A DNA stretch of 64,000 bases from Eunapius fragilis (taxonomy: Eukaryota; Porifera; Demospongiae; Spongillida; Spongillidae): the NCBI GenBank assembly GCA_963681505.1, contig OY811976.1, positions 1,422,359-1,486,358 on the forward strand. The letters run 5' to 3'. Below, one piece after another: positions 6,640-49,327 of the stretch. Both the position numbers and the translations under genes were made by a program. How positions within the stretch are numbered: the first letter of the stretch is position 1; each line of letters opens with the position of its first letter. The notes below the pieces were generated by a model. It did not search any database, was not told the origin of the DNA, and worked only from the letters and a program-made list of their open reading frames with translations.

Positions 6640-8373
6640 CAAAACAGTTTCAAAAACAATCAAACTAAAGAGTTTCCAAAAACAAACTAAGCGGCCTGAT
6701 GAAAAGGCAAAGAAACAATCAGCATGTAGTGCAAACTTGCACAATGAACAAAAATAGCTTGTCTGGCTGCGTTTTTTGGTGCTATGATAGCACACAACAC
6801 ACATGCGTTGACTGTCTGGCAACTTGGTGATGAGGTGTGGTCCAGGAAGCTGGCGCTCGGGCCCCCAGGGTGTCAGGATTACAGCGTTTGCGTGGACCAC
6901 ACTCATCTTCTGTCACTGAGCGTTGACGGTTGAGGGAACGTGCAGCAAACAGTTGTACCACTCTTAAACGAAAGACTTTGTGTGTCGATTGAGTAGTGGA
7001 ATGGGTGGTGTTGTAGTAAATGAGAGCATTGACCAAAAAAACATCAATGCCATAGTAGAAAAGTGACATGTACCAGCGCTTCTTGTGTGTCAAATATGTG
7101 TTGTAGGAAGCACGCAGAGAATTGGCTTGGTCGCAGCCACACATGTATTTGTTGTAGTCAATTGCAACAACCGGTGCTGTCTTCATTAATGATGCACTGC
7201 CTCGCCTTCGTCTGCGTACTTCTCCTCCAGACTCGCGACCATCATGACATGTAGAGAGAAACCAGACACCACTCTGTGTTGTGTCTCGCCACACACAGCT
7301 CAGCAGATGTGGAGGTGCCATTGACCATCGCCATTCTCCATCTTCCAAAGGCTGCTGTTTCACAGTCTACTCCAACTCCTTATCGATGCCATGATCAGTG
7401 CGTACGGTGCCATACATGTACAGTCCATTCTCTAGCAGCTTCTTAGCAGTATCTACTGATGTGTAGAAACGGTCAGTGGCAATGCAGAAGGGCTTTTGAG
7501 GGAGTGGTGCGCACACATCAAGCACAAGTGTTTGTGTGTTACGGAGCTTGTCGCGTGTGTCCACCACGAAGGAATAGCAGTATCCGCAGTGAGCACAATG
7601 GAGGCTGATTACCTTTATGTAATCAGATATGGGCTTCTTTGTTTCCCCACGATATGAAATGCGGGAGTAGCGATGGCCACACATGCACTGGCTCTCATCA
7701 AGAGATAGTTGTTGTTGTGGATTGTAGCGAGCCTGAGAGATTTGCTGTACAAGGTCAAGAAATGGACGGACTTTGGCAAGACGATCACTCTCATTCTCAG
7801 TAGGTGTGGGGTTGGCAACCATCGCGAGGGAGAATGTTCTGTACAATGCCCTGGGTCAATAACGTATCAGTACTCCTAGTCTTCTTCATTTGGCAGCTGT
7901 ACAAGGTCCATGATAATAATGACAGCAAGATATGCATACACATCAGCCAAAGTGATGTCCTTGTACAACTTGAGCAGCACTGGTGGTTTGGAGGAACCAA
8001 GTTCAATGTGTGCTCGGCGATTGATCCTATTTTAATCATGTTCACTATGTGAGGAGTCGACCACATGTTCTGGTTCAGCATCTGGGCAAATAGGTCCAAC
8101 ATCTTCCAAGGCAAACGCAAGCATCGTGACAGAAATGCCTTGGTGCTGCTGCCAGTCTGCAACATTCTTTGTTGTCTGCGAGGTGCTGGACTGCCACCAC
8201 GACCCGTGCCTCGTCCACGACTACGACTACGACTCCAAGAGTCCAGCATTGTTCGTCACACAACGTGTGCTTGTTTCAGGTTCTTCATTCTCACTGCTGA
8301 CGTCTTCATCGCTCCTATGGTACAAAACTTCTTCGTTATCACTTGACTCTTCTGAATCCGACACCTCCGCCAT
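6640..8373 (-). pseudogene. piggyBac-type transposase, broken by stop and frameshifts
   Basis: The minus strand carries in order: an acidic N-terminus from the ATG at 8373 (MAEVSDSEESSDNEE), an in-frame stop soon after, a segment with ITLADVYAYLAVIIIMDLVQ (near 7900-7960), then the DDE core in the frame 7846-7367. That core has DRLAKVRPFLDLVQQ, the first catalytic aspartate in LSLDES, and DRFYTS (usually DNFYTS). After a stop at 7367 the frame 7363-6782 adds IDYNKYMCGCDQ, the third acidic site, and the RWYMSLFYYGIDVFLVNA helix. A C-terminal cysteine-rich finger (CVVCYHSTKK...CSLCKFALHADCF) follows in another frame at about 6860-6740. The order and spacing match piggyBac transposases of about 550-600 aa. 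At least three frame breaks and one early stop show it is dead. I could not identify TTAA-flanked termini. Confidence 0.85.
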
Positions 8374-10233: not shown

Positions 10234-10430
10234 CGAGGGGTCCGCCATCACTGAAAACTCGTACGCTCTACTCAGAACAAATAGAAATCAATAAAAATCC
10301 GGCAGAAATCACGAAATCGCGTTGAAATCTTGAATTCCGGTAGAAATCATGAAATCACTTGAAATCCGGCAGAAATCACCGGTAGAAATCATATTCATGA
10401 AATCTTGAAATCCGGCAGTAAATAAATTTT
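10234..10430 (+). mobile_element. Truncated terminus of the P-like transposon family (left end)
   Basis: It begins CGAGGGGTCCGCCATCACTG, matching the left inverted repeat of the complete element at 43325 with one or two changes. It continues with the same subterminal array of GAAATC/AGAAATC repeats and CTCGTACGCTCTA. The match fades by about 10430 and no right end follows. It is a one-ended remnant or a deleted copy, showing that the family is present more than once in this genome. Confidence 0.7.
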
Positions 10431-12086: not shown

Positions 12087-12473
12087 GTAAGATCAGGAAA
12101 TGGATGCTTTATTTATGAAACATTTAATCATTGAGAGCACAGATCGAGTGCTTCAGCAGCTTTTCTTAAGTTGTCTCTTATGCTATTTTGGGTCAACAGG
12201 TACAGCATGTTGGGATGCCTTGTGTTTCCTTCGACTGTTCTTCTTTTTCTTCTTGGACAAACGGGTCATGTCTAAGTGGATCTCTGTCCTTCCCTCTTTA
12301 ACAGGGTCCTCAAAGCTCTCTAACAACTGGCTATTCTCTATCAGCGTTAGGTTGGGTTTTGGGCAGTCCACATCATCCCTACCGAATGAAGACACCGAAT
12401 GAAGACTGCCTTACCACCTTGTATAGGGTTGGGTAGCTGTAAATTATATGACAGCTTTTATGTTGCTTTATAC
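12087..12473. other. Between helicase exon and coiled-coil exon
   Basis: A minus-strand frame (12395-12183) reads a plausible C-terminal exon ending in a lysine-rich stretch (SKKKKKNSRRKHK). It could be the last exon of the coiled-coil gene at 12474-13310. However, the AG acceptors I can see before it do not keep the phase, so I leave it uncalled. Confidence 0.3.
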
Positions 12474-13310
12474 CTTTTGCTCATTCTGTTGTCGCCCCGC
12501 CCTTAGCCCCTCCTTCTGTTGTCGTCCTGCCCTTGGCCCCTCTTGTAGCTCCACCTTGAGCCCTTCCTTCTGTGGCTCCACCTTGATCCCTTCCTTCTGT
12601 GGCTCCACCTTGAGCACTTCCTTCTGTGGCTCCACCTTGAGCACTTCCTTCTGTGGCTCCACCTTGAGCACTTCCTTCTGTGGCTCCACCTTGAGCACTT
12701 CCTTCTGTGGCTCCACCTTGAGCACTTCCTTCTGTGGTTTTGTCTTGAGCACTTCCTTCTGTGGCTCCACCTTGAGCACTTCCTTCTGTGGCTCCACCTT
12801 GAGCACTTCCTTCTGTGGCTCCACCTTGAGCACTTCCTTCTGTGGCTCCACCTTGAGCACTTCCTTCTGTGGCTCCACCTTGAGCACTTCCTTCTGTGGC
12901 TCCACCTTGAGCCCTTCCTTCTGTGGCTCCACCTTGAGCACTTCCTTCTGTGGCTCCACCTTGAGCACTTCCTTCTGTGGCTCCACCTTGAGCACTTCCT
13001 TCTGTGGCTCCACCTTGAGCACTTCCTTCTGTGGCTCCACCTTGAGCACTTCCTTCTGTGGCTCCACCTTGAGCACTTCCTTCTGTGGCTCCACCTTGAG
13101 CACTTCCTTCTGTGGTTTTGTCTTGAGCCCCTCTTGTAGCTCTGTCTTGAGCCCCTCTTGTTGTAGCTGTGTCTTCAGACCCTCTTCTTGTAGTTCTGCC
13201 TTGAGCCACTCTTGTTGTAGTTCTGCCTTGAGCTCTGCCCTTAGTCGTTTTCTCTCACCCTTTAGTTCATAGCGATCCTTTTGTTCTGCTAGCATCAGGC
13301 TTCTCTCCTG
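12474..13310 (-). CDS. Coiled-coil exon expanded by a 27-bp minisatellite
   Basis: On the minus strand an 837-base exon (279 codons) is bounded by a good acceptor (CTTTCAG|CAGGAG at 13310) and donor (CAAAAG|GTATAA at 12474), both in phase 0. The N-terminal part is a Glu/Lys/Leu-rich coiled-coil-like region (LKGERKRLRAELKAELQQEW). It grades into about 20 copies of a nine-residue unit, PQKEVLKVE, and ends with an Arg/Gln-rich tail. The graded flank and the splice borders make this strand the likely coding one; the plus-strand and the other minus-strand frames over the array are open only because 27 is divisible by three. Function is unknown; it resembles repetitive coiled-coil proteins. Flanking exons were not resolved. 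Confidence 0.55.
12560..13120. repeat. 27-bp minisatellite, about 20 copies
   Basis: Tandem units of the form TTCCTTCTGTGGCTCCACC followed by TTGAGCAC, nearly identical through the centre. A few variants are shared (GTTTTGTC in two units, GAGCCC in two). High homogeneity indicates recent expansion or gene conversion. The length is a multiple of three, so copy-number change keeps the reading frame. Confidence 0.9.
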
Positions 13311-14465
13311 CTGAAAGGACATAACCATATTACCACCTCCCTCAGTTAGCAAATATAACATCATCCATACCACGCAATATTCACAACATGTACATGCCCC
13401 CAGTGGGTGTTCGCTGTAGCCCAGACCTACGCTATATTTTTGTGCGAAAAAACGATGGAGAGCGAAAAAATTGGTACTCATGTACAGGTACACATGCACA
13501 TGTGGTTATGTCACTGTGTAATCCTGAGGGGAAGTCAACATTTTCATGGTGCAGTTTCTGGTGCCATGCATGGGTTACTTACTGAGCACATGCATATTGA
13601 AAAGATGTAGCATGCAGGGAGGTGAGGGGAGGGAGGAAGTGGTATATGGTAGTCATTCAACAAGTTGCAAAGTTGACCCCAAGACCACGAATAATATATT
13701 CATATTCTAAGCTACAGATGTGAGGCAGACAATAGGAGACATATGTGACATACCCTCCACACATACCCCTCACACCCAGCTTGCCACTTGCAGCATGACT
13801 GTGTGTGAGTGTGTGTGACACACTCATACACACACAAACACATCGTGAGTATCATACTTGATGTATTATCAGGGGTGGATCGGGGGGGGGGAGGGGGGGG
13901 GGGGGGGGGGGGATAGTCCTGGGAGTCAGGCCCCAACCCCCAGGCCTTACTATCAAATTACCCACTATTGCATATGTGTGCAAAGCCATGTTGTCCAATT
14001 TTTGGCTTAACAATATGGTTTGTATTAACTATCTGAAAGCTTTCAAACAAATACAGTGTATGAGTACTGTACAAACCGATGTTCTTGAACGATGTTCATG
14101 AGATATGATGCATGTGCTCAGGTGAGACAGAGAGACCTGTTATAACAATAAGTGATTGCTAGTATCATTCACCTCTTAGTTATTTGAAACACCTATTGGT
14201 TTTCAAGAAAGGAGATTTATTGATAGCAGTATCTATACTGTACTGCACATGCAATGCATAAATGAAACCATCGGCCTAAACTTCACATGTGGTGCTGCTA
14301 CCCACCAGCCCCTGCTGTGTCCTGGGGCTATTGACTGTGCGGTCCCCAGTACCACCTCAATCACAAGGATTGAGGTGGTGAACACCTCGGCATTGCTGTG
14401 CAACAGCAATGCAATTGACCTACCTCAGGCCGCGTCAGGGACATGGGCCTATTCAGGCTCACAAT
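13311..14465. other. No certain gene; contains a poly-G tract
   Basis: Contains short TG/CA microsatellites (13795-13845) and a run of G broken by a single A at 13882-13912. The plus frame 14249-14467 has no recognised domain; it may be upstream sequence of the Ulp1-like fragment. Confidence 0.4.
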
Positions 14466-20273: not shown

Positions 20274-23200
20274 CTACGTGATTTTCCAAACTGCATACTC
20301 ATCAGGAGGATATTTAGTAATTTTAGCATTCTCAGCATGTTGTGGAGAAGGACAAAGCACTATCTTGCATAAGTTGTGAGGAATTGCAAACTTCCTTAAG
20401 AAATTATCATATACTGGTGACTTAAATTTGTGCTTGCCATTGAATTGTCTGGTTGCTTGGATACAGATTGCATTACCACTGTTATCTCTATACATCATAT
20501 CAACAACTTCAAAGTTCATTTTGTGCTCAAACTGTGGCACTTCATACATAATAGGTCCCATGCTAAGTTTTTTGTTAAAATGTAAAGGAGCCCACTCACC
20601 ACCAACACAAGAAGTTATTGTTTTGGAAATCCAGTTGTCACGTCTTGAACTGCTACACAACAATTCAGCAACAACTGCCTGAAAATTGGTCTTGTCCAGT
20701 GCTTTATTGTACGATCCATTAGGAGCACTATCATTCCTTTGAAGGTCTTGTATTCTGTTTGCTAGAGCTACATGCTGCAAAAAATCGAACACAGCCAACT
20801 TTACATTAGAATTTACAAACTTTTCCTCCACATTTTCATAACAGAAAGGGTAACTTGAATGCAAATGCATCAAATGATGAGTTACGGCTGATACTCTCTT
20901 AAATAGCTCGAGACATGACACGTCAGATTCCTTTAAATTCTGTAGGGTGTATTGTGATTCTGCTTTGTATTCCACATACATACTTTCTGAACAAAACACG
21001 TATCGTATTAATCCTCCAATATGATTAAAACGATCACAAACAAGTTGCTCATCAAATTTAGGATCTGCAGCATATTTCTGAATATGTACAAGTTCTTGCA
21101 GTGTATATGGCGACATATACAATGAACGCGAAAACCCCTCTTGCTTCTTATACTCATGATACTTACTCTCTCGTCTGACAGACAAAAAATACATACAAAT
21201 GGGAGCGAACTTGATGAAAGGAGCACATTCTTCTTGCTGGGGATCAAAAAGATAAATTGGAGTTTTACTCCACCCCTTAAAAAACTGCACTGTGCACCCC
21301 ATTGTGAGTCTAACTATGTAAGCCGTTTTCTTCCGAAGCAAGTACATATATAGGTTTGGGCCTAACTGTCTGAACACCACATCAGTTATTTCACTCTTAT
21401 CCTTACACAAACGCCACAGAAGGTAATACTGAAACATTGACTTTCCAATTCCTGGATTTCCAAGAAGTACTGTTTTCTTTTCTTCCATAAAGCGATCAAA
21501 TAGTTCTTTATAAAATGATCTTACAAAGATACAATTTGACATTACTGAGCAATCCTGTATGTCGGAAATACTATATTTCAGTTTGATCACATCAAATGAT
21601 TTGGATATGTTGGTTTCATCAGCTTTAGATAATGCTGATAGTAAATTTGAATGCAATTCATCCATTTCATTCACCTCAAGATGCTGTAAAACATAATTAG
21701 GGATGATATCCAAATCTGAAACAGAAAGTAATGTCTTTCAGTTGCATTGTAACAGTGACACAGAAAATCATACTTTTTCACATGGGAAAGGTTGGAGTGA
21801 GCTTACAGTTATGGTCAAGGGACTGGGTCTTTGAAATATGTAAAAGGCGTGGAATGAATTTAATTTACCACCCTTTCAGCTTTAAAATGATACCTTACAT
21901 GATACTATTCAACAATTAGTGAAAAGTACAAAGGATGCATGTTTATAGTAGGTCAAAAAGGTCTGCAAATATATAACCCAAATTATTCTCACGCCACTTT
22001 TCAATCTTCAAACAAGGTGAAGTAGGGTACACTCTTGTAGCTTGTACAGAAATGGCGAAACTGTCGGACAAAATAGGCATATCCAATTCTGCACAGAAGT
22101 AGTTCTAAAAGCCCTTGTGTACATAACAATAGCCCTACGCCACTTTTCCATCACAGATCACATTTCTGTATTAAAAGGCGCTATGCCTGAGCAGTAGCTG
22201 TCAGCCCTACGTGGATTTTGCAAAATGGTTCATAACTCTTGAGAGAGCAAACGGTGGTATCAAGATTAATAAAGCAAGAAGTCGATACATGTAGTAACTA
22301 CATTTTAATGACAAACCATACCATTTCGAACGGATTAGTAGTTTTCGTACTTTTACCTTAATGGCTCCTATTCAATGTATTGCGCACGTGACGTGTTTCC
22401 AATCCCTGTATATACTATCTTTGATAACTGCAAGCAAACCAGCAGTGTTCTCCCTAGGGAAAAAAAAGTAGAGTGGCAAAGGGGGAGGTACCCCTCCTGC
22501 CCTGCAAGGGGGTATGGGGGAGCGCTGGGAGCTCTCCCATGAAGTTTTTGCAGTTTTTGTGCTTAACCACTACCAAAACATGTGTCATTTATTATTAATG
22601 GAGGTCAGTCCATGTCATTTTAATCACTATTGCTTTTTCAGCACAACTTTATAGATGTGAGGCAATGTGCTCAGTGATACAAGAATGAACCAGAAGATAG
22701 CATGCAAAAGTTAATTTGAACTGAAGAAGAGTTGATATGATAGGCTCGGAGTTTCCTATTAGTAATCGAGCTCCATTTGTTTACAGCTGATTCAAAGCCA
22801 AACTCATCAAGAGAAGGGCCTTCTATACTGATACGAAGTAAAGCATCTAATGTGACTGATTTAAGCCTATTTCATATTCGAGTTTTCACTTTCATTGTTT
22901 AGAATGCACGTTCACAATCAGCAGTATTGATTGGAATCACGAGCCAAATTAGCTAAGCAAGATAGCTGTGGGTAGACAGGGTTTAGCTTTCCACTTACAA
23001 GATCTTTTATTACTTCAATTGTTTTACCATTACCCTAATGATCTTGTAGCAGTTAGTAGAAGTAATTCACAATGTGAGGAACTTTGATTTGACCCTGGCA
23101 AAAAGTTTCTTGAGATCCTGCCAAAAAACATATACCAGCAAAATGCTCTGTTAGCTACCAGAATCAGCAAGTTTCAGGTTGGGAACTCGCTATTTACAAT

Positions 23201-27585: not shown

Positions 27586-29400
27586 TCATTCTCTAGAGTT
27601 AAATATCTCACTAATAGTTTTCGTGTCCTGAGGTAGGTCATCAATAAATGTAGTAAACGTTTCGTCTAGGGTTTCAGGACTTAAGTCGGATTCTAATGCT
27701 GCCATGACAAAGGAGGAGATAAACTCTTTTGTGCTTGAAGCCATTGCAAACAATTGCACATAGTCAATATACATGTTCTGCAGCTGAGGATAAAGATCAC
27801 TTGACACATAGAGATGAGCTGAACAATCTAAAGCTTTGTCTACCCGCTCATAGTCTATTAAAACAGGAATATAGCTGGATGGTGTGAGCCTTCTGTAACA
27901 TATATTTGGAAGCCGCACATCAAGATGTGCAAGGTTCAGGGAATAATGCATGAGTTTCAGACTTTCGCGAACTTCAGTGCAAATGTATTGCATGCAAGGT
28001 TTGGCATCAAGATTAGCTAAAGGTGGTAAGAGTTGCTCAAAAATGTAGAATTGGCCCAAACTTTGCACACGTACAATTGGCACACAAAAACGTTGTATCT
28101 CAGTTGCATCCAAGGTTCGAAGCACAGCATTAGCATCATTGAATTTAAGTTCAGACATAGAATGGACAAAATATTTTACAATGCAGCTCTTATCTTGTTT
28201 TGATTTGGATGCCAATTGAAATACAAATGATGGTGCAGAAGGCAATTGAACTATTTCCAAATCGTTAGTTTTCAACCAACCCAAACTTTTGCATTGCTGT
28301 AGTTGTTTGTTTAATGGAGTTGGTGTTACTAAGTTTGCAGTGATAACCTGCTGTAGCTCCTGTTCAGTAAGCTTGAAAAGGAAAGATGAGTTAACATCAG
28401 GAGATGATTTCAAATTCTGCACTAACATATTCTTAGCACTTTGGACCACATCGTTTAATGCAGTCCAGGCTTCGTTATATTGTAATGCTTCATAAGTGGT
28501 ACGAAAATGCATCTTTTCTATTACCCATTTAACAGATACTTTAATTGGTGCAGTTGCTAGTCTTGCTTTCTTTTTCCTTGGCTGTTGAGAGGTATTTTCC
28601 AAATCTTCGATGATAGAGGTATCTGCCTCAGTTTCCTCAGTTCTTTGATCATCATCATCATCAACTTGAGCATCATAGACGTCAGTAGCTACGCTCGCAT
28701 TCGTATCCTTTGGTTCTGTATGCCTTGGGAAAGCGAAACCAAAAAGTTCCCCAGTTACTATACCTATGCTTCTCAATAGCCTATGATGTTCCACTAATCT
28801 AAATGCACAACAGAGAGCTGTTTGCATTATGGTACTAGACTGTTCTTCTATGTATAGTAGTGGAACACCCCATGATCTTACATCCTTCAATAAAGTAAAT
28901 GCTTGTTTTTGAAATGTACTATCATTGATTGGGAATAAATGTGAGACAGAGTGGTAAAAAATCACAACATCCGGTTTCATCGAAGGTGAACAAAACTTCC
29001 AAGATCTTAGTAATTTGAACAAAGCAACTTCACAACGCGGAATCAATATATATCCATTCTCGCAAACAACACCGAAAATTCTGTACACCCCTTTTCTATT
29101 TTTGGCATAAACAATGTTAGACGTAGTTGTACTTTCACAAAGCTGCAAAGCAACTCTCATCATAAACAGATTTTCATAATAGGTTTTAATTGATCTGCCA
29201 CCACTATATTGTTTTATCTGGCTTGCTACATTCGTACTCAAATTGTCATCAGGAGATACAGTATCAGGTACATCAATTTCTCTAGGCATGGGTACCATTT
29301 TAACATCCATGAATTGATTTAGCGCCAGAGTAGAAGTAGAAGGAGATGAATAAGATGTCACTTTACTCTGTGTTACATTCTTTGCTCTATCAGGGGCTTG
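27586..29400 (-). CDS. Terminal exon encoding a kinase-like protein with an uncharacterised N-terminal domain
   Basis: A 604-codon open frame begins right after a strong acceptor (pyrimidine tract then TTTGTAG at 29401) and ends at TGA/TAG 27586. It is the last exon of a gene or a near-complete single-exon gene (first internal ATG near 29311). Counting from the first codon given by the GTG at 29361, CIVKYF (about 388) resembles the VAIK lysine, HLDVRLPNI (479-487) the HRDxxxxN catalytic loop with D481 and N486, and LIDYE (D503) the DFG metal site. The catalytic triad is intact. An acidic/basic linker (DDDDDQRTEE..., QQPRKKKARL) separates this from an N-terminal domain with ENLFM, KPDVVIFY and LLYIEEQ, spaced somewhat like a PD-(D/E)XK nuclease fold; that reading is weak. 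Kinase-like C-termini occur among Crinkler-type effectors. The header exons at 31991-32306 lie 2.6 kb upstream on the same strand, but phases do not join directly. Confidence 0.65.
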   Translation of the reverse strand, partial: QAPDRAKNVTQSKVTSYSSPSTSTLALNQFMDVKMVPMPREIDVPDTVSPDDNLSTNVASQIKQYSGGRSIKTYYENLFMMRVALQLCESTTTSNIVYAKNRKGVYRIFGVVCENGYILIPRCEVALFKLLRSWKFCSPSMKPDVVIFYHSVSHLFPINDSTFQKQAFTLLKDVRSWGVPLLYIEEQSSTIMQTALCCAFRLVEHHRLLRSIGIVTGELFGFAFPRHTEPKDTNASVATDVYDAQVDDDDDQRTEETEADTSIIEDLENTSQQPRKKKARLATAPIKVSVKWVIEKMHFRTTYEALQYNEAWTALNDVVQSAKNMLVQNLKSSPDVNSSFLFKLTEQELQQVITANLVTPTPLNKQLQQCKSLGWLKTNDLEIVQLPSAPSFVFQLASKSKQDKSCIVKYFVHSMSELKFNDANAVLRTLDATEIQRFCVPIVRVQSLGQFYIFEQLLPPLANLDAKPCMQYICTEVRESLKLMHYSLNLAHLDVRLPNICYRRLTPSSYIPVLIDYERVDKALDCSAHLYVSSDLYPQLQNMYIDYVQLFAMASSTKEFISSFVMAALESDLSPETLDETFTTFIDDLPQDTKTISEIFNSRE

Positions 29401-43316: not shown

Positions 43317-43324
43317 TGTAACGG

Positions 43325-43545
43325 CGAGGGGTCCGCCACCACTGAAATCTCGTACACTCTAGTGAGAAATCACATAGAAATCGTGAAATCAATAGAAATC
43401 CGGCAGAAATCACGAAATCATATTGAAATCTAGAAATCCGTCAGAAATCACGAAATCACTTTAAATACGGTAGAAATCACATTGAAATCTTGAAATCACC
43501 GTAAATTTAGAAATCACAGCCGTAAATTTAGAAATCACATCCGTA
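43325..43545 (+). promoter_or_regulatory. Left terminus and subterminal GAAATC repeats of the transposon
   Basis: After the 18-bp inverted repeat come about ten copies of AGAAATC/GAAATC with variable spacing and the motif TCTCGTAC. The right end (49095-49285) has the same motif in clusters. Such arrays are usual transposase-binding regions in P-, hAT- and CACTA-type elements; binding is inferred. Confidence 0.6.
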
Positions 43546-43662
43546 TTTTCTACAAAAACTTATGCATTATTTATAACTACTTTTGCAATAATTATTAATG
43601 TTTATATGCCAATTATACCAATAATGACATAATTATACTTATACTCGTACGAAATAATCAGT

Positions 43663-44730
43663 ATGGAGCTCGGAGCTTGCGATTCAGAATCAGAAGAATC
43701 AAAAGTTCAGTGTGTTGAGCGCCTGTTGAGGTCAAAGCTGCCAGGCTACATAGTCAGTTGCATGTTGGCTGCGGGATTCGACACACTCGACACTTTGGCA
43801 CGCATGGATGTTGGAAACCAACCGGGCAATTCCATCCAGATCATTGAAGAATACATCTCTTCCAACTTTCCAGGCGACGCCAGGTACATGCATGCTCCAT
43901 TACTTGGATCAACGTGCAAATTTCCCCCTGGACACCGTATTAGAATCGAGCGATTTGTGCAAGAACTGCGCTCAAGCCACGTATGTCACGACCTCCTCAA
44001 TGATGCTGTTCGGCCTGCTACGAAGAAAAAGAAAAAAAACAGTGAACCAGAAGCAGAAGCTGCACAAGCTCCAGCTGGAGAAATTCCTGCTTTAACGGAA
44101 AGCCGCACTACTTCGACGATTATAGCGAGACTTCGTCAGCAGATCAATGCGTGGCAAAAAAAGTTATCTGATGAAAGGCTGCGAAGTTTGCAAGAAAATG
44201 TACACTACGAGTTGACTATGAAAGAAGAGCAAGCTGTGGTGAGTTGCAAGTTGTGTTCTAGAAATCTCATTCTTAGTTCCAAACACAATAAGCTAATCTT
44301 GTCCAATTGGACACGTCACGTTAGTACATGTTTCAAGGCTCCCAAAGAGCATAATCACATTGAAAAATACTTCTTGAACCTACCATCACAAGCTGATAAG
44401 CCTTGCACATCTAAATCAGCTAATGCACTATCCAATTCTTCTTCAGCATTGCTTTCATCAACATCTCCAACTGTCACCACAGTGTATGCCAACTCAGCAA
44501 CTAACTTGCATGTAGATCCTCCATCACCATCACCATCACCACCATCACCATCATCATCATCATCTACTACTTCATCATCATCTAGTTCCAGTTCATCATC
44601 ACCTCCAGCTGTCACTATGCACATGATATGTCAGCAATTTGTATGTCAAAGCCAAAAAAGCACCAAGATCAGGCAGATAAATATCACATACATGTACAAA
44701 GTCCAATTGATAAATTTAGTACACCTATAG
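43663..44730 (+). CDS. Transposon ORF1: zinc-finger protein with serine-rich tail
   Basis: A frame of 355 codons from ATG 43663. Residues 20-100 look like a small helical domain (LPGYIVSCMLAAGFDTLDTL, FPPGHRIRIERFVQEL), followed by a lysine cluster (121-125). Residues 195-223 hold C195-x2-C198...W216-x2-H219-x3-C223, a BED-like or related zinc finger suited to DNA binding. A low-complexity Ser/Pro tail follows (about 260-330). The motif SSSPPAVTMH recurs downstream in another frame (44580-44890), with a good donor at 44641 (TTT|GTATGT) and several AG acceptors before 45044. ORF1 may therefore be spliced to the transposase ORF as its N-terminus; I could not find a phase-consistent set of introns. 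DNA recognition of the terminal repeats is the likely role. Confidence 0.6.
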   Translation: MELGACDSESEESKVQCVERLLRSKLPGYIVSCMLAAGFDTLDTLARMDVGNQPGNSIQIIEEYISSNFPGDARYMHAPLLGSTCKFPPGHRIRIERFVQELRSSHVCHDLLNDAVRPATKKKKKNSEPEAEAAQAPAGEIPALTESRTTSTIIARLRQQINAWQKKLSDERLRSLQENVHYELTMKEEQAVVSCKLCSRNLILSSKHNKLILSNWTRHVSTCFKAPKEHNHIEKYFLNLPSQADKPCTSKSANALSNSSSALLSSTSPTVTTVYANSATNLHVDPPSPSPSPPSPSSSSSTTSSSSSSSSSSPPAVTMHMICQQFVCQSQKSTKIRQINITYMYKVQLINLVHL

Positions 44731-45043
44731 CTGACTTTGAACCTCCATCACCATTCATATCTCCATCAATGTCGTCTCAAATCTTATCATCAGAATCATC
44801 ATCTTCATCAGCAGCTGCACCATCACTATCACTGACATCATCTACATGTAGCTCATCATCACCTCCAGCTGTCACTATGCACATCAATTGTCAGCATTCA
44901 GTACCACATAGCAGCCTCCCTAACAAGCAGGGTTTTCACAACCCCCCTCCTTTTCAAAAGAAGTAGGAGGGGGTAGTGAAAATTCCTCTTTACATGTAGA
45001 CTTAGGTAGCCTTTCAACTACACAGACTAGTACTAGTACAGCA

Positions 45044-47530
45044 ATGCATAATGACTGGAGCAGAAGCTTCAGGAAACAGCAGTCCATTCATAAAGCGGGT
45101 TCTGATCCATCACAGATTAAACTAACATCATATTTCAGTGTTGCAAAGGACATAGAAACCCTAATCATTGATAATCCTAATATTGCTAAGTGCATCGATA
45201 CTAGGCAAGCTGCTCTTAAAGGAACATTCACACCACTTTTTCAAAGCCTTGTGGATAATGCACAGTTAAATATACACAAGTTACCAAAAGAACGTCGTCA
45301 TGATCACGTCATGAAAAAATTTTCTACATCATTGTTCATTTATGCAGGACCCCTTGCATATTCATTTGTTCATCAGAACATGCCTCAAGCTCTGCCATCA
45401 CTTAGGACTGTCCAACGAATTGTCCACCATGAGTATGAGGTTATGAATGAAGGGGAATTTAGATTTGACCAATTAGCTAATCACATTAACAGCTATAAAT
45501 GCGCAAGAGTAATTGTCATCGGTGAAGATGCAACTCGTTTAGTTGCAAGAGTTGATTACGATCCGGAAACAAATAGACTAGTGGGGTTTGTGCTGTCTGA
45601 AGGTGAGGATAGCTTACCATCTATTGATGCTCATGTAGCTATTTCTTTTCAATCTATTGAAGATTCTTTCAAAAGTTCCAAGATATCGAAATATGCTTTA
45701 GTCTACATAGCCCAGCCTCTTTCACCAGGAGTTCCTGCCTTTCCTTTAGCTTGTATCGGTACTGATAATAAGTTCACTGCAGATATTCTTTTAAAGCGAT
45801 GGTCGCATATTTCAAGTGAGTGTCAAAAAAGAGGAATCTCTGTGCTAAGTTTTGGCTCAGATGGCGACTCGAGAGAACTAAAAAACATGCAGTATTGTAC
45901 TGCATTTTTTACTATGCATGCTTCAAAAGATGTGAAATCTTGCATTCCATCGCATTGGAAGTCATGGTTTTTTCTTAAAAAACCAACACAGGTAGCATAT
46001 GTCCAAGATACAGTACATGTGGGGACAAAACTGCGCTCTAGACTCTTAACTCCATCCATCATTCTTGCTTTAGGAAAGTATGTTGCTGGTGCCCATCATT
46101 TGCAGTTGGTGCAAAGTACTTATTCTAAAGATCAACATGGCCTGAGAGAGCGAGATATAGATTGCAGGGACAAGCAAAACTTTGATTCAGTGCTGCGCAT
46201 TACAAGCAGCAGTGTGATGGCACAAATTTCTCAGATCCCGGATGCTAAGGGTACTCATGTGTATCTTAAAGCTTTGAAAGCTGTTTTAGATAGTTACTTA
46301 AATAAACAGCTTAGTCCACTTGATAGAATATCCAACATTTGGTATGCTGTGTTCTTTTTTCGATATTGGCGCCAATGGCTTTTGTCTGTTCCAAGCTACT
46401 CCTTGGGCAACAACTTCATAACGCGGAATTCTTATTTGTGTATAGAGCTAAATGCACATGCTCTTATCATTTTCATGAGAACATTGCGGGATCATTATTC
46501 GGACGGTGCTGCCCTATTCAGTCCTTGGAAGCTTGGGTCACAATCATGTGAAAAAACCTTTAGGGCTGTTCGCAGCATGACCACTACTTTCTCCACTGTT
46601 ATAAATGTGGGAATGCTTGGGTTATTAAGAAGGCTACACCGACTTCAGATTCAGTTTAGACTTGAGGCTGAATCAGCACAGAATGGCATTAGGTATCCAC
46701 ACTGTGAAAAGCATAACAACAAAGATGGATCTAATACACGAGTTACATTTTCCCTTCAGGGTGTAACTGATGCTAACATTGAAGATGCTGTCGAATGTGG
46801 AAGGAAATTAGCGATGAAAGATATCGAGATGCTTGGGATGGAGTTATCTTTGGAAAGGAACATGGAAGTTGAAAATGAATCGGCAGGCAGTATAATTCCT
46901 GAAGCAGAAGAAGATGATGAAGAACTTGATGATGAAGAGCCACCAAGAAGTGATGTGAATGAAGCTGAGTTGCTGAAAGAAGCATGCTGTGCTGTTGATG
47001 AAGAGGAAGTCGTATCAAGTCTCGATGATTTAAAAAGTGCTAAACTAGTCGAGGGGGACCTTCTAAAGCAGTTGGTACAAATGCAGGAAGCTGTCTCCTA
47101 CAAGAAGGTGCAGTCAGGTACATCTCTACCAATTTATACCAAAAATCCTGTGCAAAGCTCTAAGGCATCAAAGAAGTGTTCCCGATTTGTTGAAGTAAGC
47201 CACGTTGGCCGCACAATTTACATCCACAAAACAACTGCAGTGTGGCTATTTCAAGAAGGAGAAAGAGTTAGAGAAAAGCAACCTTATTCAAGTGTTACTA
47301 CTAACGAAATCAAGGTCTGTGACTCCAATGCCACTGTTCCGACTATGTGCGATGTGATTTCAATAGGTGACATATGTGCGTTTAAGTTTCCGGAACCGTG
47401 TAAATGGAAGCTTGGCAAAGTTTTGCAATTTTGCTACACAAGTGAGAAAACAAAAATGAAACGACAGTATAAAAAAACTAGTTACAACAAAAATTCTGAA
47501 GCAAAACAGACGGGAGTCATGTGTTCTTAG
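45044..47530 (+). CDS. Transposase resembling the P-element/THAP9 RNase-H fold
   Basis: 828 codons without a break. The order of conserved-looking elements follows P-type transposases: LPSLRTVQRIVHHEYE (119-132), a first strand with VIGEDATRLVARVDYD and TNRLVGFVL (D162), and KYALVYIAQPL. Then come GISVLSFGSDGDSRELKNM (D273 and/or D275, like the CDxGSNN strand) and QDTVHVGTKLRSRLL (like DxxHxxKxxRN). A helical insertion follows, and then GSQSCEKTFRAVRSM (E503, like the ExFFxxIR helix). An acidic region (DDEELDDEEPPRSD, about 620-660) precedes a C-terminal part of unknown fold. There is no THAP finger; DNA binding may come from ORF1. Assignment to the P superfamily is inference from motif order plus the 8-bp target duplication; KDZ or hAT relatives are the alternatives. 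Confidence 0.65.
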   Translation: MHNDWSRSFRKQQSIHKAGSDPSQIKLTSYFSVAKDIETLIIDNPNIAKCIDTRQAALKGTFTPLFQSLVDNAQLNIHKLPKERRHDHVMKKFSTSLFIYAGPLAYSFVHQNMPQALPSLRTVQRIVHHEYEVMNEGEFRFDQLANHINSYKCARVIVIGEDATRLVARVDYDPETNRLVGFVLSEGEDSLPSIDAHVAISFQSIEDSFKSSKISKYALVYIAQPLSPGVPAFPLACIGTDNKFTADILLKRWSHISSECQKRGISVLSFGSDGDSRELKNMQYCTAFFTMHASKDVKSCIPSHWKSWFFLKKPTQVAYVQDTVHVGTKLRSRLLTPSIILALGKYVAGAHHLQLVQSTYSKDQHGLRERDIDCRDKQNFDSVLRITSSSVMAQISQIPDAKGTHVYLKALKAVLDSYLNKQLSPLDRISNIWYAVFFFRYWRQWLLSVPSYSLGNNFITRNSYLCIELNAHALIIFMRTLRDHYSDGAALFSPWKLGSQSCEKTFRAVRSMTTTFSTVINVGMLGLLRRLHRLQIQFRLEAESAQNGIRYPHCEKHNNKDGSNTRVTFSLQGVTDANIEDAVECGRKLAMKDIEMLGMELSLERNMEVENESAGSIIPEAEEDDEELDDEEPPRSDVNEAELLKEACCAVDEEEVVSSLDDLKSAKLVEGDLLKQLVQMQEAVSYKKVQSGTSLPIYTKNPVQSSKASKKCSRFVEVSHVGRTIYIHKTTAVWLFQEGERVREKQPYSSVTTNEIKVCDSNATVPTMCDVISIGDICAFKFPEPCKWKLGKVLQFCYTSEKTKMKRQYKKTSYNKNSEAKQTGVMCS

Positions 47531-47551
47531 TTTAATTCATCTGATTCGAAA

Positions 47552-48601
47552 ATGTTTAAGTTGAATGTAGATAGAAATACCATAGAAAATCATTCCTTTT
47601 TGTCAACAAAGTCATACTTATGCACACTGTCACGAGGCTGTTTTGCATCTTTGGATGGCCCAGAAGCAAGTAGTAGTAAGTTCTTTACCCTTGATGAAGG
47701 TAAAATCGCTTTAATGACAGCTCACACAGTAACCCTTACCACCGCTGCTATTGATCACATCACCACCTTATGTGTCTGTGCCGATGATCAACAATCTACA
47801 AAGGCCATCATAGACATATCTACAGACCAAAAAAAAGTGCAGGAAGTAGGTGAGCATATTTGGGTCAAAAGTGGAATTGTAACCCTGACGAAACAAGATA
47901 AGGATCGGTTGATTGGAGGACATGAGCTATCAGATGCTCACATCAACTTTGCTCAGTTTCTACTGAAACATCAGTTCTCTAATATAGATGGTTTCCGAAA
48001 TACGCTTGAGCAAAACAAATCTTATATCAGAAGATTTCCGGAGTCCTCTGCAAAATTAATGCAGGTCATTTTTATCAGAGAATGTCACTGGGCATGTGTT
48101 CTTATACATGAAAACCAGGTGTGTTTGTACGACAGTGCATACACATCTGTATCTGCTGATACCTTTCAAGTTGTAGCAAGGCTAGTACAATGCGCAGAAC
48201 CATCATTCCAGATACACGTTATGAATATATCTACTAAGCAGAGAGGTGCAGTAGATTGTGGTTTATATGCCCTTGCTGTGCTAACAAGTTTAGCATTTGA
48301 TCAAGATCCCACTACATTAGTTTATGATCAACAAGCCATGCGCCCACATTTGATCACAAGTTTTGAGGAAATGAAGATCACACCTTTTCCAGTCCTAAAG
48401 CACCGCAGACCAGCTGACAAAGTTTCCAAAGTTGAAGAATGTATTCTGCATTGTTATTGTAGGATGCCTGATGATGGGTACGAAATGGTCTGCTGTGATC
48501 TTTGTGATGCTTGGCATCACAAAGCTTGTGTCAATGATTCGTATTGCAAGGATAGTTCCTGGTTATGCACACATTGTAGCAAAAATGAACTTGTTCAATA
48601 A
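47552..48601 (+). CDS. Transposon ORF3: Ulp1 (C48) protease fused to a PHD finger
   Basis: 349 codons from the ATG at 47552, 21 bases after the transposase stop and in another frame. The middle shows the Ulp1-type triad and oxyanion residue: H179 in ECHWACVLIHENQ, D194 in CLYDSAY, Q230 and C236 in STKQRGAVDCGLYALAV. The C-terminus is a canonical C4HC3 PHD finger (C301-x-C303, C315-x2-C318, H323-x2-C326, C339-x2-C342). All key residues are present. Ulp1-like proteases cut SUMO or related conjugates, and PHD fingers commonly read histone H3 tails. Carrying both would let the element act on SUMO-based silencing or pick chromatin, which is speculation. The gene may be the 3' part of a polycistronic or spliced transposon transcript. 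Confidence 0.8.
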   Translation: MFKLNVDRNTIENHSFLSTKSYLCTLSRGCFASLDGPEASSSKFFTLDEGKIALMTAHTVTLTTAAIDHITTLCVCADDQQSTKAIIDISTDQKKVQEVGEHIWVKSGIVTLTKQDKDRLIGGHELSDAHINFAQFLLKHQFSNIDGFRNTLEQNKSYIRRFPESSAKLMQVIFIRECHWACVLIHENQVCLYDSAYTSVSADTFQVVARLVQCAEPSFQIHVMNISTKQRGAVDCGLYALAVLTSLAFDQDPTTLVYDQQAMRPHLITSFEEMKITPFPVLKHRRPADKVSKVEECILHCYCRMPDDGYEMVCCDLCDAWHHKACVNDSYCKDSSWLCTHCSKNELVQ

Positions 48602-49319
48602 TTATTGTTGTATCAGTTGTATTAAAATAATGTTGTGATGCTTTGATTAATTGATTGCGTAAGTATTAAATTTAATAACCATGACTATTGCATTATAATT
48701 ACGTGGGCGTCATTTATCAAAAGAGCTATTTGAAATCAGAATGTAGCTTTACAATAACAGCGAGCCGCTCTTATGACCCGTTCTAATTACGTAAACAAAA
48801 ATAGAATAGCCTTTGGGCATCGAAATTATGTCGGTTGGCACTAAAAAGCACAATAATGCGCGAGAAAATACATACAGGCAACACAGTTCACATCGAGCAC
48901 ACACACCCGCACCCCAAAAAGTCTAGGTAGAATGGCACCCTTTAAAATCATGCCATTGTTGAATTGGTTGCCGCATGCAGCCGCGCCGTGACCCGTCACC
49001 TCACTCGCCTCCCTCAGACCTCAGACCGAGCATCAGACTGACTCGGACTGACCAGCTACGTCACGAATGTATTATTACGTCAAAAGAAATGTTGAAATTC
49101 AAGTCGTATTACGGTAGAAATCACATAAAATCAGTCGGAAATCTGGAAATCACACGGAAATCTGGAAATCATATAGAAATCACGGAAATCACCTCGAAAT
49201 CTAGAAATCACCTCGAAATCTAGAAATCACCGGAAATCAAACAGAAATCTGAAATTGATTTCGAAATCACCGTGATTTCGAAATCTCGTACGGCTTATAG
49301 GGTAGTGGCGGACCCCTCG
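48602..49319 (+). other. 3' region of the P-like transposon
   Basis: Non-coding. It holds the GAAATC-rich subterminal array (49095-49285) and the right inverted repeat (49302-49319). No further ORF. Confidence 0.6.
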
Positions 49320-49327
49320 TGTAACGG

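Follow-up and report, generated by a model that had tools for sequence, protein, structure and literature searches.

We analyzed a 64,000-nucleotide stretch of the genome of the demosponge Eunapius fragilis (GenBank assembly GCA_963681505.1, contig OY811976.1, positions 1,422,359 to 1,486,358 of the forward strand), here called the window. Within it lies a DNA transposon of 5,995 bp (window positions 43325 to 49319), the features of which are given in Table 1. An earlier note, made from the letters alone, had described it as an intact-looking P-like transposon with 18-bp inverted ends, a perfect 8-bp duplication, subterminal GAAATC arrays, and three unbroken open reading frames (ORFs), encoding a zinc-finger-like protein (ORF1), a transposase, and a Ulp1 protease joined to a PHD finger. 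As far as the ends are concerned, this description was borne out. The inverted ends have one mismatch (94% complementarity), the same 8 bp, TGTAACGG, stand on both sides, and among lengths from 4 to 11 bp only 8 gives matching flanks. The word GAAATC occurs 16 times within 250 bp of the left end and 15 times within 250 bp of the right end, versus 4 times in the intervening 5,495 bp. The left end of a related element lies elsewhere in the window, at 10234 to 10421 (82% identity over 156 bp, with one mismatch in the first end); no right end that would pair with it was recognized nearby in the window when up to three mismatches were allowed.

Table 1. Features of the transposon and its flanks in the window
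Feature	Position	Strand	Remarks
Left 8-bp target-site duplication, TGTAACGG	43317..43324	.	Same letters flank both sides of the element
Left terminal inverted repeat	43325..43342	+	18 bp; end-pattern search
Left subterminal array	43344..43536	+	16 GAAATC words
ORF1	43663..44730	+	Ser-rich second half, its frame there disturbed relative to sister copies
Zinc-finger-like motif C-x2-C...H-x3-C	44245..44331	+	ORF1 residues 195-223; pattern, no Pfam hit
Last stretch of ORF1	44628..44966	+	Different frame in the window copy
P-like transposase part	45044..47530	+	828 codons; ended in the window copy by TAG
QIKLTSYF, PCNA-interaction-like box	45113..45136	+	Unchanged in 5/5 sister copies readable there
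Helix-turn-helix domain, PF12017 Tnp_P_element	45236..45415	+	Residues 65-124; above curated cutoff
D162, first catalytic Asp candidate	45527..45529	+	GEDAT
D273, second catalytic Asp candidate	45860..45862	+	GSDGD
D322-T-V-H, P-superfamily DxxH motif	46007..46018	+	
E503, catalytic Glu candidate	46550..46552	+	SCEKT
TAG stop splitting the fusion gene	47528..47530	+	Window copy; sister-copy comparison
Ulp1-PHD part	47552..48601	+	349 codons; own ORF only through the upstream TAG
Stretch with Ulp1 catalytic residues H179, D194, Q230, C236	48086..48259	+	Kept in 6/6 sister copies
PHD finger	48452..48577	+	Residues 301-342; profile and fold
Right subterminal array	49117..49285	+	15 GAAATC words and a short palindrome
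Right terminal inverted repeat	49302..49319	-	18 bp
Right 8-bp target-site duplication, TGTAACGG	49320..49327	.	

The genes of the element are best understood by comparison with its other copies in the genome (218.9 Mb in 24 contigs). The three ORFs are present in the window copy, but the transposase ORF ends there in a stop that the sister copies lack. At the codon that reads TAG in the window (47528 to 47530), all six sister copies (L009 to L014) have TGG, for tryptophan, and the diverged copy L016 has a tryptophan codon at the equivalent position. Beyond the TAG, the Ulp1-PHD ORF of the window copy begins after 21 bases and retains the frame of the transposase, and open frames of 1,089 codons in the C1 copy and 937 codons in the C18 copy cross the junction. 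The six tryptophan codons and the open frames over the junction show that the family encodes a single transposase–Ulp1–PHD fusion, which is split in the window copy. The proposal that Ulp1-PHD is a separate gene, as the earlier note had it, is thus rejected for the family. Nor is the element intact: its gene is interrupted by the TAG, and the second half of its ORF1 is displaced in frame. Because it is split, the window copy could at best make a shortened transposase, or else be mobilized by a more complete relative.

The relation of ORF1 to the transposase is less simple. In both the C1 and C18 copies a single frame, interrupted by one internal stop in each, extends from the beginning of ORF1 as far as a stop immediately ahead of the transposase. 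Of the four copies that were translated end to end, three (window, C1, and C18) have overlapping ORF1 and transposase frames that are one base out of phase; in the fourth, C2, the two are in the same phase and parted by stops. ORF1 could be joined to the transposase by splicing or by frameshifting. Between 44942 and 44966 the sequence CCCCCCT precedes the ORF1 stop by a short distance, and by that point the transposase frame, offset by one base, is open; a −1 frameshift is possible at this site, as is simply an intron. A Pfam search with ORF1 gave no hit, and its zinc-finger-like motif is one that we take to be BED-like from its pattern only.

Six further near-full-length copies were found: one each on C1 and C18, and two each on C2 and C3. 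Their transposases have 90 to 99% protein identity to that of the window copy, and across the whole element identity to the window copy is 98.4% for C1 and 98.6% for C18; the family has therefore moved recently. The two C3 copies (C3:13630159-13640323 and C3:13772058-13782213) exceed the window copy in length by about 4.2 kb each. Because they share the duplication CGCCAACC, a left flank equal at 158 of 158 bases, and a right flank with 96.6% identity over about 1 kb, we counted them as one insertion; the pair is a segmental duplication carrying an element with an insert. Five more copies are diverged, with transposases of 42 to 54% identity where aligned. Shorter derivatives also occur: one copy of 351 bp, and two internally deleted copies (L038 and L039) that lie at different sites and whose deletions have an identical junction (element 902|5280), and so are a mobilized nonautonomous subfamily. 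Another sequence, L037, has the family ends and GAAATC words and no other match.

The earlier note proposed searching for other such ends with 8-bp duplications, and the search was positive. With up to one mismatch allowed, a 15-base end pattern was found at 36 sites in the genome, versus 4 sites for the reversed pattern, and 20 of the 36 sites form ten inverted pairs spaced 0.35 to 10.2 kb apart. One further possible pair, on C4, is 28 kb apart. Among 10 insertions that could be read at both ends, the 8-bp duplication is perfect in five, matches at 7 of 8 positions in two, and matches at 6 of 8 in one; for each perfect duplication, no length between 4 and 11 other than 8 gives a match. Searches of viral contigs and prokaryote genomes with tblastn found no relatives.

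Three lines of evidence favor placing the transposase in the P superfamily. The helix-turn-helix model of P elements, PF12017, matches the window transposase with an E value of 1.2e-5 (26 bits versus a cutoff of 23). Genome-wide this model has four matches, all within copies of the element (30.5 bits in three and 29.8 bits in the fourth), and it has none in 14 control genomes. The catalytic signature of the superfamily, D..D..[C/D]xxH..E, can be assigned by eye in the right order, as D162, D273, D322TVH, and E503. The corresponding residues of the Drosophila P transposase, as given in part of PMC8230255, are D230, D303, D339xxH, and E531. The spacing from DxxH to E is 181 residues here and 192 in Drosophila P; the first two Asp residues stand 111 residues apart in this transposase, as against 73 in Drosophila P and 104 and 102 in two P-like proteins encoded elsewhere in the genome. 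Finally, a profile of the family aligned collinearly with six P-like (PF21787-type) transposases of this genome over 206 columns, with an E value of 1.1e-4 and a score of 38.3. By comparison, 40 column shuffles scored no higher than 22.0, the reversed profile scored 14.8, and control profiles (the integrase-like part of L048, ORF1, and Ulp1) scored 13.4 to 14.2. An integrase affinity finds no counterpart in these data: the score against the integrase-like part of L048, 13.6, is at the control level, and no integrase Pfam domain was hit by the window proteins. Near its N terminus the transposase has the sequence QIKLTSYF, which fits the PCNA-interaction box pattern.

No THAP finger, which is usual at the N terminus of P-type transposases, was found, in agreement with the earlier note. 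Among 150 THAP matches scored of 271 candidates genome-wide, none lies within a copy of the family, and no Pfam model hit ORF1. This suggests that a P-type transposase is able to do without a THAP finger.

The C-terminal part of the fusion was examined with a profile and a structural model made from an alignment of nine rows. The profile matches yeast Ulp1 (1EUV) at 1.3e-7 over the catalytic domain. The model has a mean predicted local distance difference test (pLDDT) score of 65; residues 101 to 300 are mostly at 71 to 94, except for 151 to 170 at 53 to 63, and the first 100 residues are under 40. When it was compared with the PDB by Foldseek, the best match was SENP2 (E = 2.7e-6), followed by SENP1 and Ulp1, and of 26 fold matches at E ≤ 0.001, 24 were SENP or Ulp1, one was Den1, and one was a bacterial CE-clan protease. 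The protease part thus models as a SENP/Ulp1 (C48) fold with a putative His-Asp-Cys triad. Besides being kept in the sister copies, the catalytic residues H179, D194, Q230, and C236 are kept in the diverged copies where these are readable: H and D could be read in two of them, and Q and C in a single one. For the PHD finger, PHF2 was the first profile match (2.2e-11), with SPP1 also among the best, and the zinc-pattern residues C301, C303, C315, C318, H323, and C326 are invariant (alignment A3). Fold matches of this part are weak (E = 0.07 to 0.12) and are to the fingers of DIDO, TAF3, and PPS, several of them bound to histone H3 trimethylated at lysine 4 (H3K4me3). The PHD finger resembles H3K4me3 readers. 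Profile and fold together uphold the original assignment of this part as a Ulp1 protease with a PHD finger fused to it.

If the association of transposase and Ulp1-PHD were an accident of the window copy, it would not recur in distant relatives. However, all six sister copies carry Ulp1-PHD, and four of the five diverged copies have Ulp1 or PHD sequence after their transposase (in L017, only the PHD part); ORF1 sequence precedes the transposase in two of the five. Between the window copy and the diverged copies, divergence at first, second, and third codon positions is.42/.30/.58 for the transposase (2,335 codons, overlapping pieces included),.39/.25/.60 for Ulp1-PHD (395 codons), and.49/.32/.66 for ORF1, the last from just 114 codons. 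The third-position excess in both parts of the fusion implies that the transposase and Ulp1-PHD were both held by selection while the two subfamilies parted.

The Ulp1-PHD module is not confined to this family. Of 892 candidate matches genome-wide, 116 were scored, the family's own included. In L048 and L049 the module ends a protein whose start reads as a gypsy-type integrase; in L048 the Pfam C48 and PHD models are both above their cutoffs. L050 reads similarly; its PHD score exceeds the cutoff, and its C48 score falls below. The L048 protein occurs in several copies with 100% identity, which have therefore multiplied recently. These loci may be either Ginger1 DNA transposons or long terminal repeat (LTR) elements. 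Ulp1-PHD genes form a large population, and those that were read adjoin gypsy-type-integrase-like sequence; upstream context was read for L048 to L050 and, among the other nine non-P rows, for L059, L060, and L061 only. In an unrooted tree of 15 Ulp1-PHD rows, a branch with support of 100/99 separates the 4 P rows from the 11 non-P rows; the tree carries a long-branch warning that includes the diverged P row L018, and the direction of module transfer cannot be read from it.

Compared with the known P superfamily (Drosophila P and zebrafish Pdre2/THAP9), the element is similar in several ways: a PF12017 helix-turn-helix before the catalytic core, the D-D-DxxH-E order, an insertion region of similar length, short inverted ends, subterminal repeats, 8-bp duplications, and internally deleted copies (features of P and the zebrafish element were taken from portions of PMC7776569 and PMC8230255). 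It differs in having no detected THAP finger and in having a zinc-finger-like ORF upstream, in an RNase-H part too diverged for PF21787, and in the fusion of the transposase to Ulp1 and PHD. A GTP-binding insertion domain and a 17-nt staggered cut are further characters of the P superfamily. That module itself has precedents. Mutator-like and CACTA elements, which have other transposases and other duplication lengths, resemble the present element in being DNA transposons that carry a Ulp1 domain. Such Ulp1 domains are described in passages of PMC2528002 and PMC2836005, the first of which deals with plant elements of both kinds. Ginger1 is alike in architecture: the transposase of the Hydra element Ginger1-9_HM includes Ulp1 and PHD, placed at the C terminus as here (PMC2836005, in part). 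The catalytic part of Ginger1, however, is a gypsy-type integrase rather than P-like, its duplications are of the CCGG or CCGT type whereas those here are of varied sequence, and the Ulp1-PHD of the P-type elements forms a clade apart from the non-P rows in the tree. With the SENP/Ulp1 SUMO proteases the element shares the fold and the His-Asp-Gln-Cys set, but identity in the matches at E ≤ 0.001 is 13 to 18%, the domain is fused to a transposase, and its substrate specificity is putative. Ulp1-PHD modules in transposons are therefore already known; what this element adds is a P-like transposase fused to one. Among the papers listed by literature searches that did not cover Repbase Reports and most subscription journals, we found no description of Ulp1 in a P element.

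Taken together, these results make it probable that the element belongs to a recently active cut-and-paste family that forms a divergent branch within the P superfamily and has its transposase fused to Ulp1 and PHD. The main gene of the family encodes one long protein, with the order helix-turn-helix domain, RNase-H-type transposase, Ulp1/SENP-type protease, and PHD finger, with the zinc-finger-like ORF upstream. Several observations weigh against this explanation. PF21787, the model of the P-type RNase-H domain, has 57 matches in the genome and none in this family. The predicted structure of the transposase is unusable (mean pLDDT of 27.5, alignment A2), and its profile found nothing in the PDB. 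The probability assigned to the six-protein profile alignment is just 57%, the comparison with two proteins was weak (L055, in register, E = 0.046; both, 0.0056), and with L058 by itself the top hit fell out of register. Thus, PF12017, the signature, and the profile support the P-like assignment of the earlier note, while PF21787, the PDB profile search, and the structural model do not. In the C-terminal part, the window Ulp1 protein by itself has no hit to Pfam C48, the PHD finger scores 19.9, under the cutoff of 24, and both profile and model depend on an alignment in which non-P relatives of the same genome supply six of the nine rows. One residue of the usual H3K4me3 aromatic cage is His here. 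As for recent activity, every frame is open in none of the copies examined: C1, C18, and C2 are each interrupted at other places by stops or frame breaks, and the matches to C2b and both C3 copies are in broken pieces. Two of the 10 insertions (C1 and C2b) have no 8-bp duplication. Young copies compared with one another have no clear third-position excess in any part, which is expected because copies decay after insertion. A sequence search of the PDB with the transposase gave two chance-level T-complex matches only (E = 0.61). The 57 PF21787 matches, some with identical scores at several places, indicate a rich set of other P-like elements in this genome.

We considered whether the element might instead be a divergent hAT-type or KDZ-type transposon that resembles P by convergence. 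The failure of PF21787 would be in keeping with this, as would the motif around the catalytic Glu, SCEKTF, which is hAT-like by eye. hAT elements likewise make 8-bp duplications, and Ulp1 domains occur in KDZ elements. But PF12017, which matches above its cutoff, is a model of P elements, the DxxH motif agrees with P in form and in spacing, the profile match to P-like transposases is collinear, and no hAT Pfam family was found at E ≤ 10 for the window proteins, although the search filters drop most weak matches. A hAT or KDZ origin is therefore improbable. Still less likely is that the stop at 47528 to 47530 is functional in the window copy, yielding two proteins or being overcome by readthrough or editing. 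The diverged copy L015 has TGA at the equivalent codon, but it has many other stops, and the agreement is probably a coincidence; all six sisters and L016 have tryptophan, and the window copy also has a displaced ORF1. The capture of Ulp1-PHD as a host gene by this copy alone, which the earlier note named as a finding that would overturn its proposal, can be dismissed almost entirely in view of its occurrence in the six sisters and four diverged copies and its own clade in the tree.

How might a P-like transposase use such a module? In the scheme that we propose, the transposase part would bind the inverted ends and the GAAATC arrays, excise the element, and insert it with an 8-bp stagger, as in P-type cut-and-paste transposition. 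The PHD finger would anchor the complex to open chromatin methylated at H3K4. Proteins near the donor or target site would be stripped of SUMO by the Ulp1 part. Removal of SUMO may weaken SUMO-dependent silencing, or it may ease repair and strand transfer. According to part of PMC13195609, SUMO matters in Drosophila Piwi-piRNA silencing via Panx, and an anti-silencing role is therefore plausible. We give a role in anti-silencing or chromatin targeting roughly even chances. Somewhat less probable, but a serious contender, is that Ulp1-PHD serves the transposition reaction, either by processing the transposase or repair factors or by deSUMOylating them, and plays no part in anti-silencing. The fusion, which puts the protease within the transposase complex, favors this, and Bao et al., writing on Ginger1, suggested that Ulp1 and OTU domains may have DNA repair factors as their targets during transposition (a portion of PMC2836005); the PHD finger, however, suggests a chromatin function. 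More speculative, and in our judgment unlikely, is a generalization of the anti-silencing scheme: that throughout this branch of the P superfamily the transposase has been turned into a chromatin-targeted deSUMOylase, one protein carrying out both transposition and local anti-silencing, and that unrelated mobile elements in this host employ the Ulp1-PHD module likewise.

These findings add a P-like transposase fused to a protease and an H3K4me3-reader-like PHD finger to the published Ulp1-carrying transposons. Since one genome has the same module in two or more types of mobile element that are not related, the idea that elements defend themselves against SUMO-dependent silencing with a protease of their own becomes directly testable.

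Elsewhere in the window, broken ORFs on the minus strand at 6782 to 8249 look by eye like a piggyBac-type transposase. Repetitive, overlapping ORFs on both strands at 12448 to 13499 read as a long tandem-repeat array. Two further minus-strand ORFs, of 479 amino acids (20274 to 21713) and 591 amino acids (27586 to 29361), appear by eye to be P-loop/Crinkler-type-like and kinase-like, respectively.

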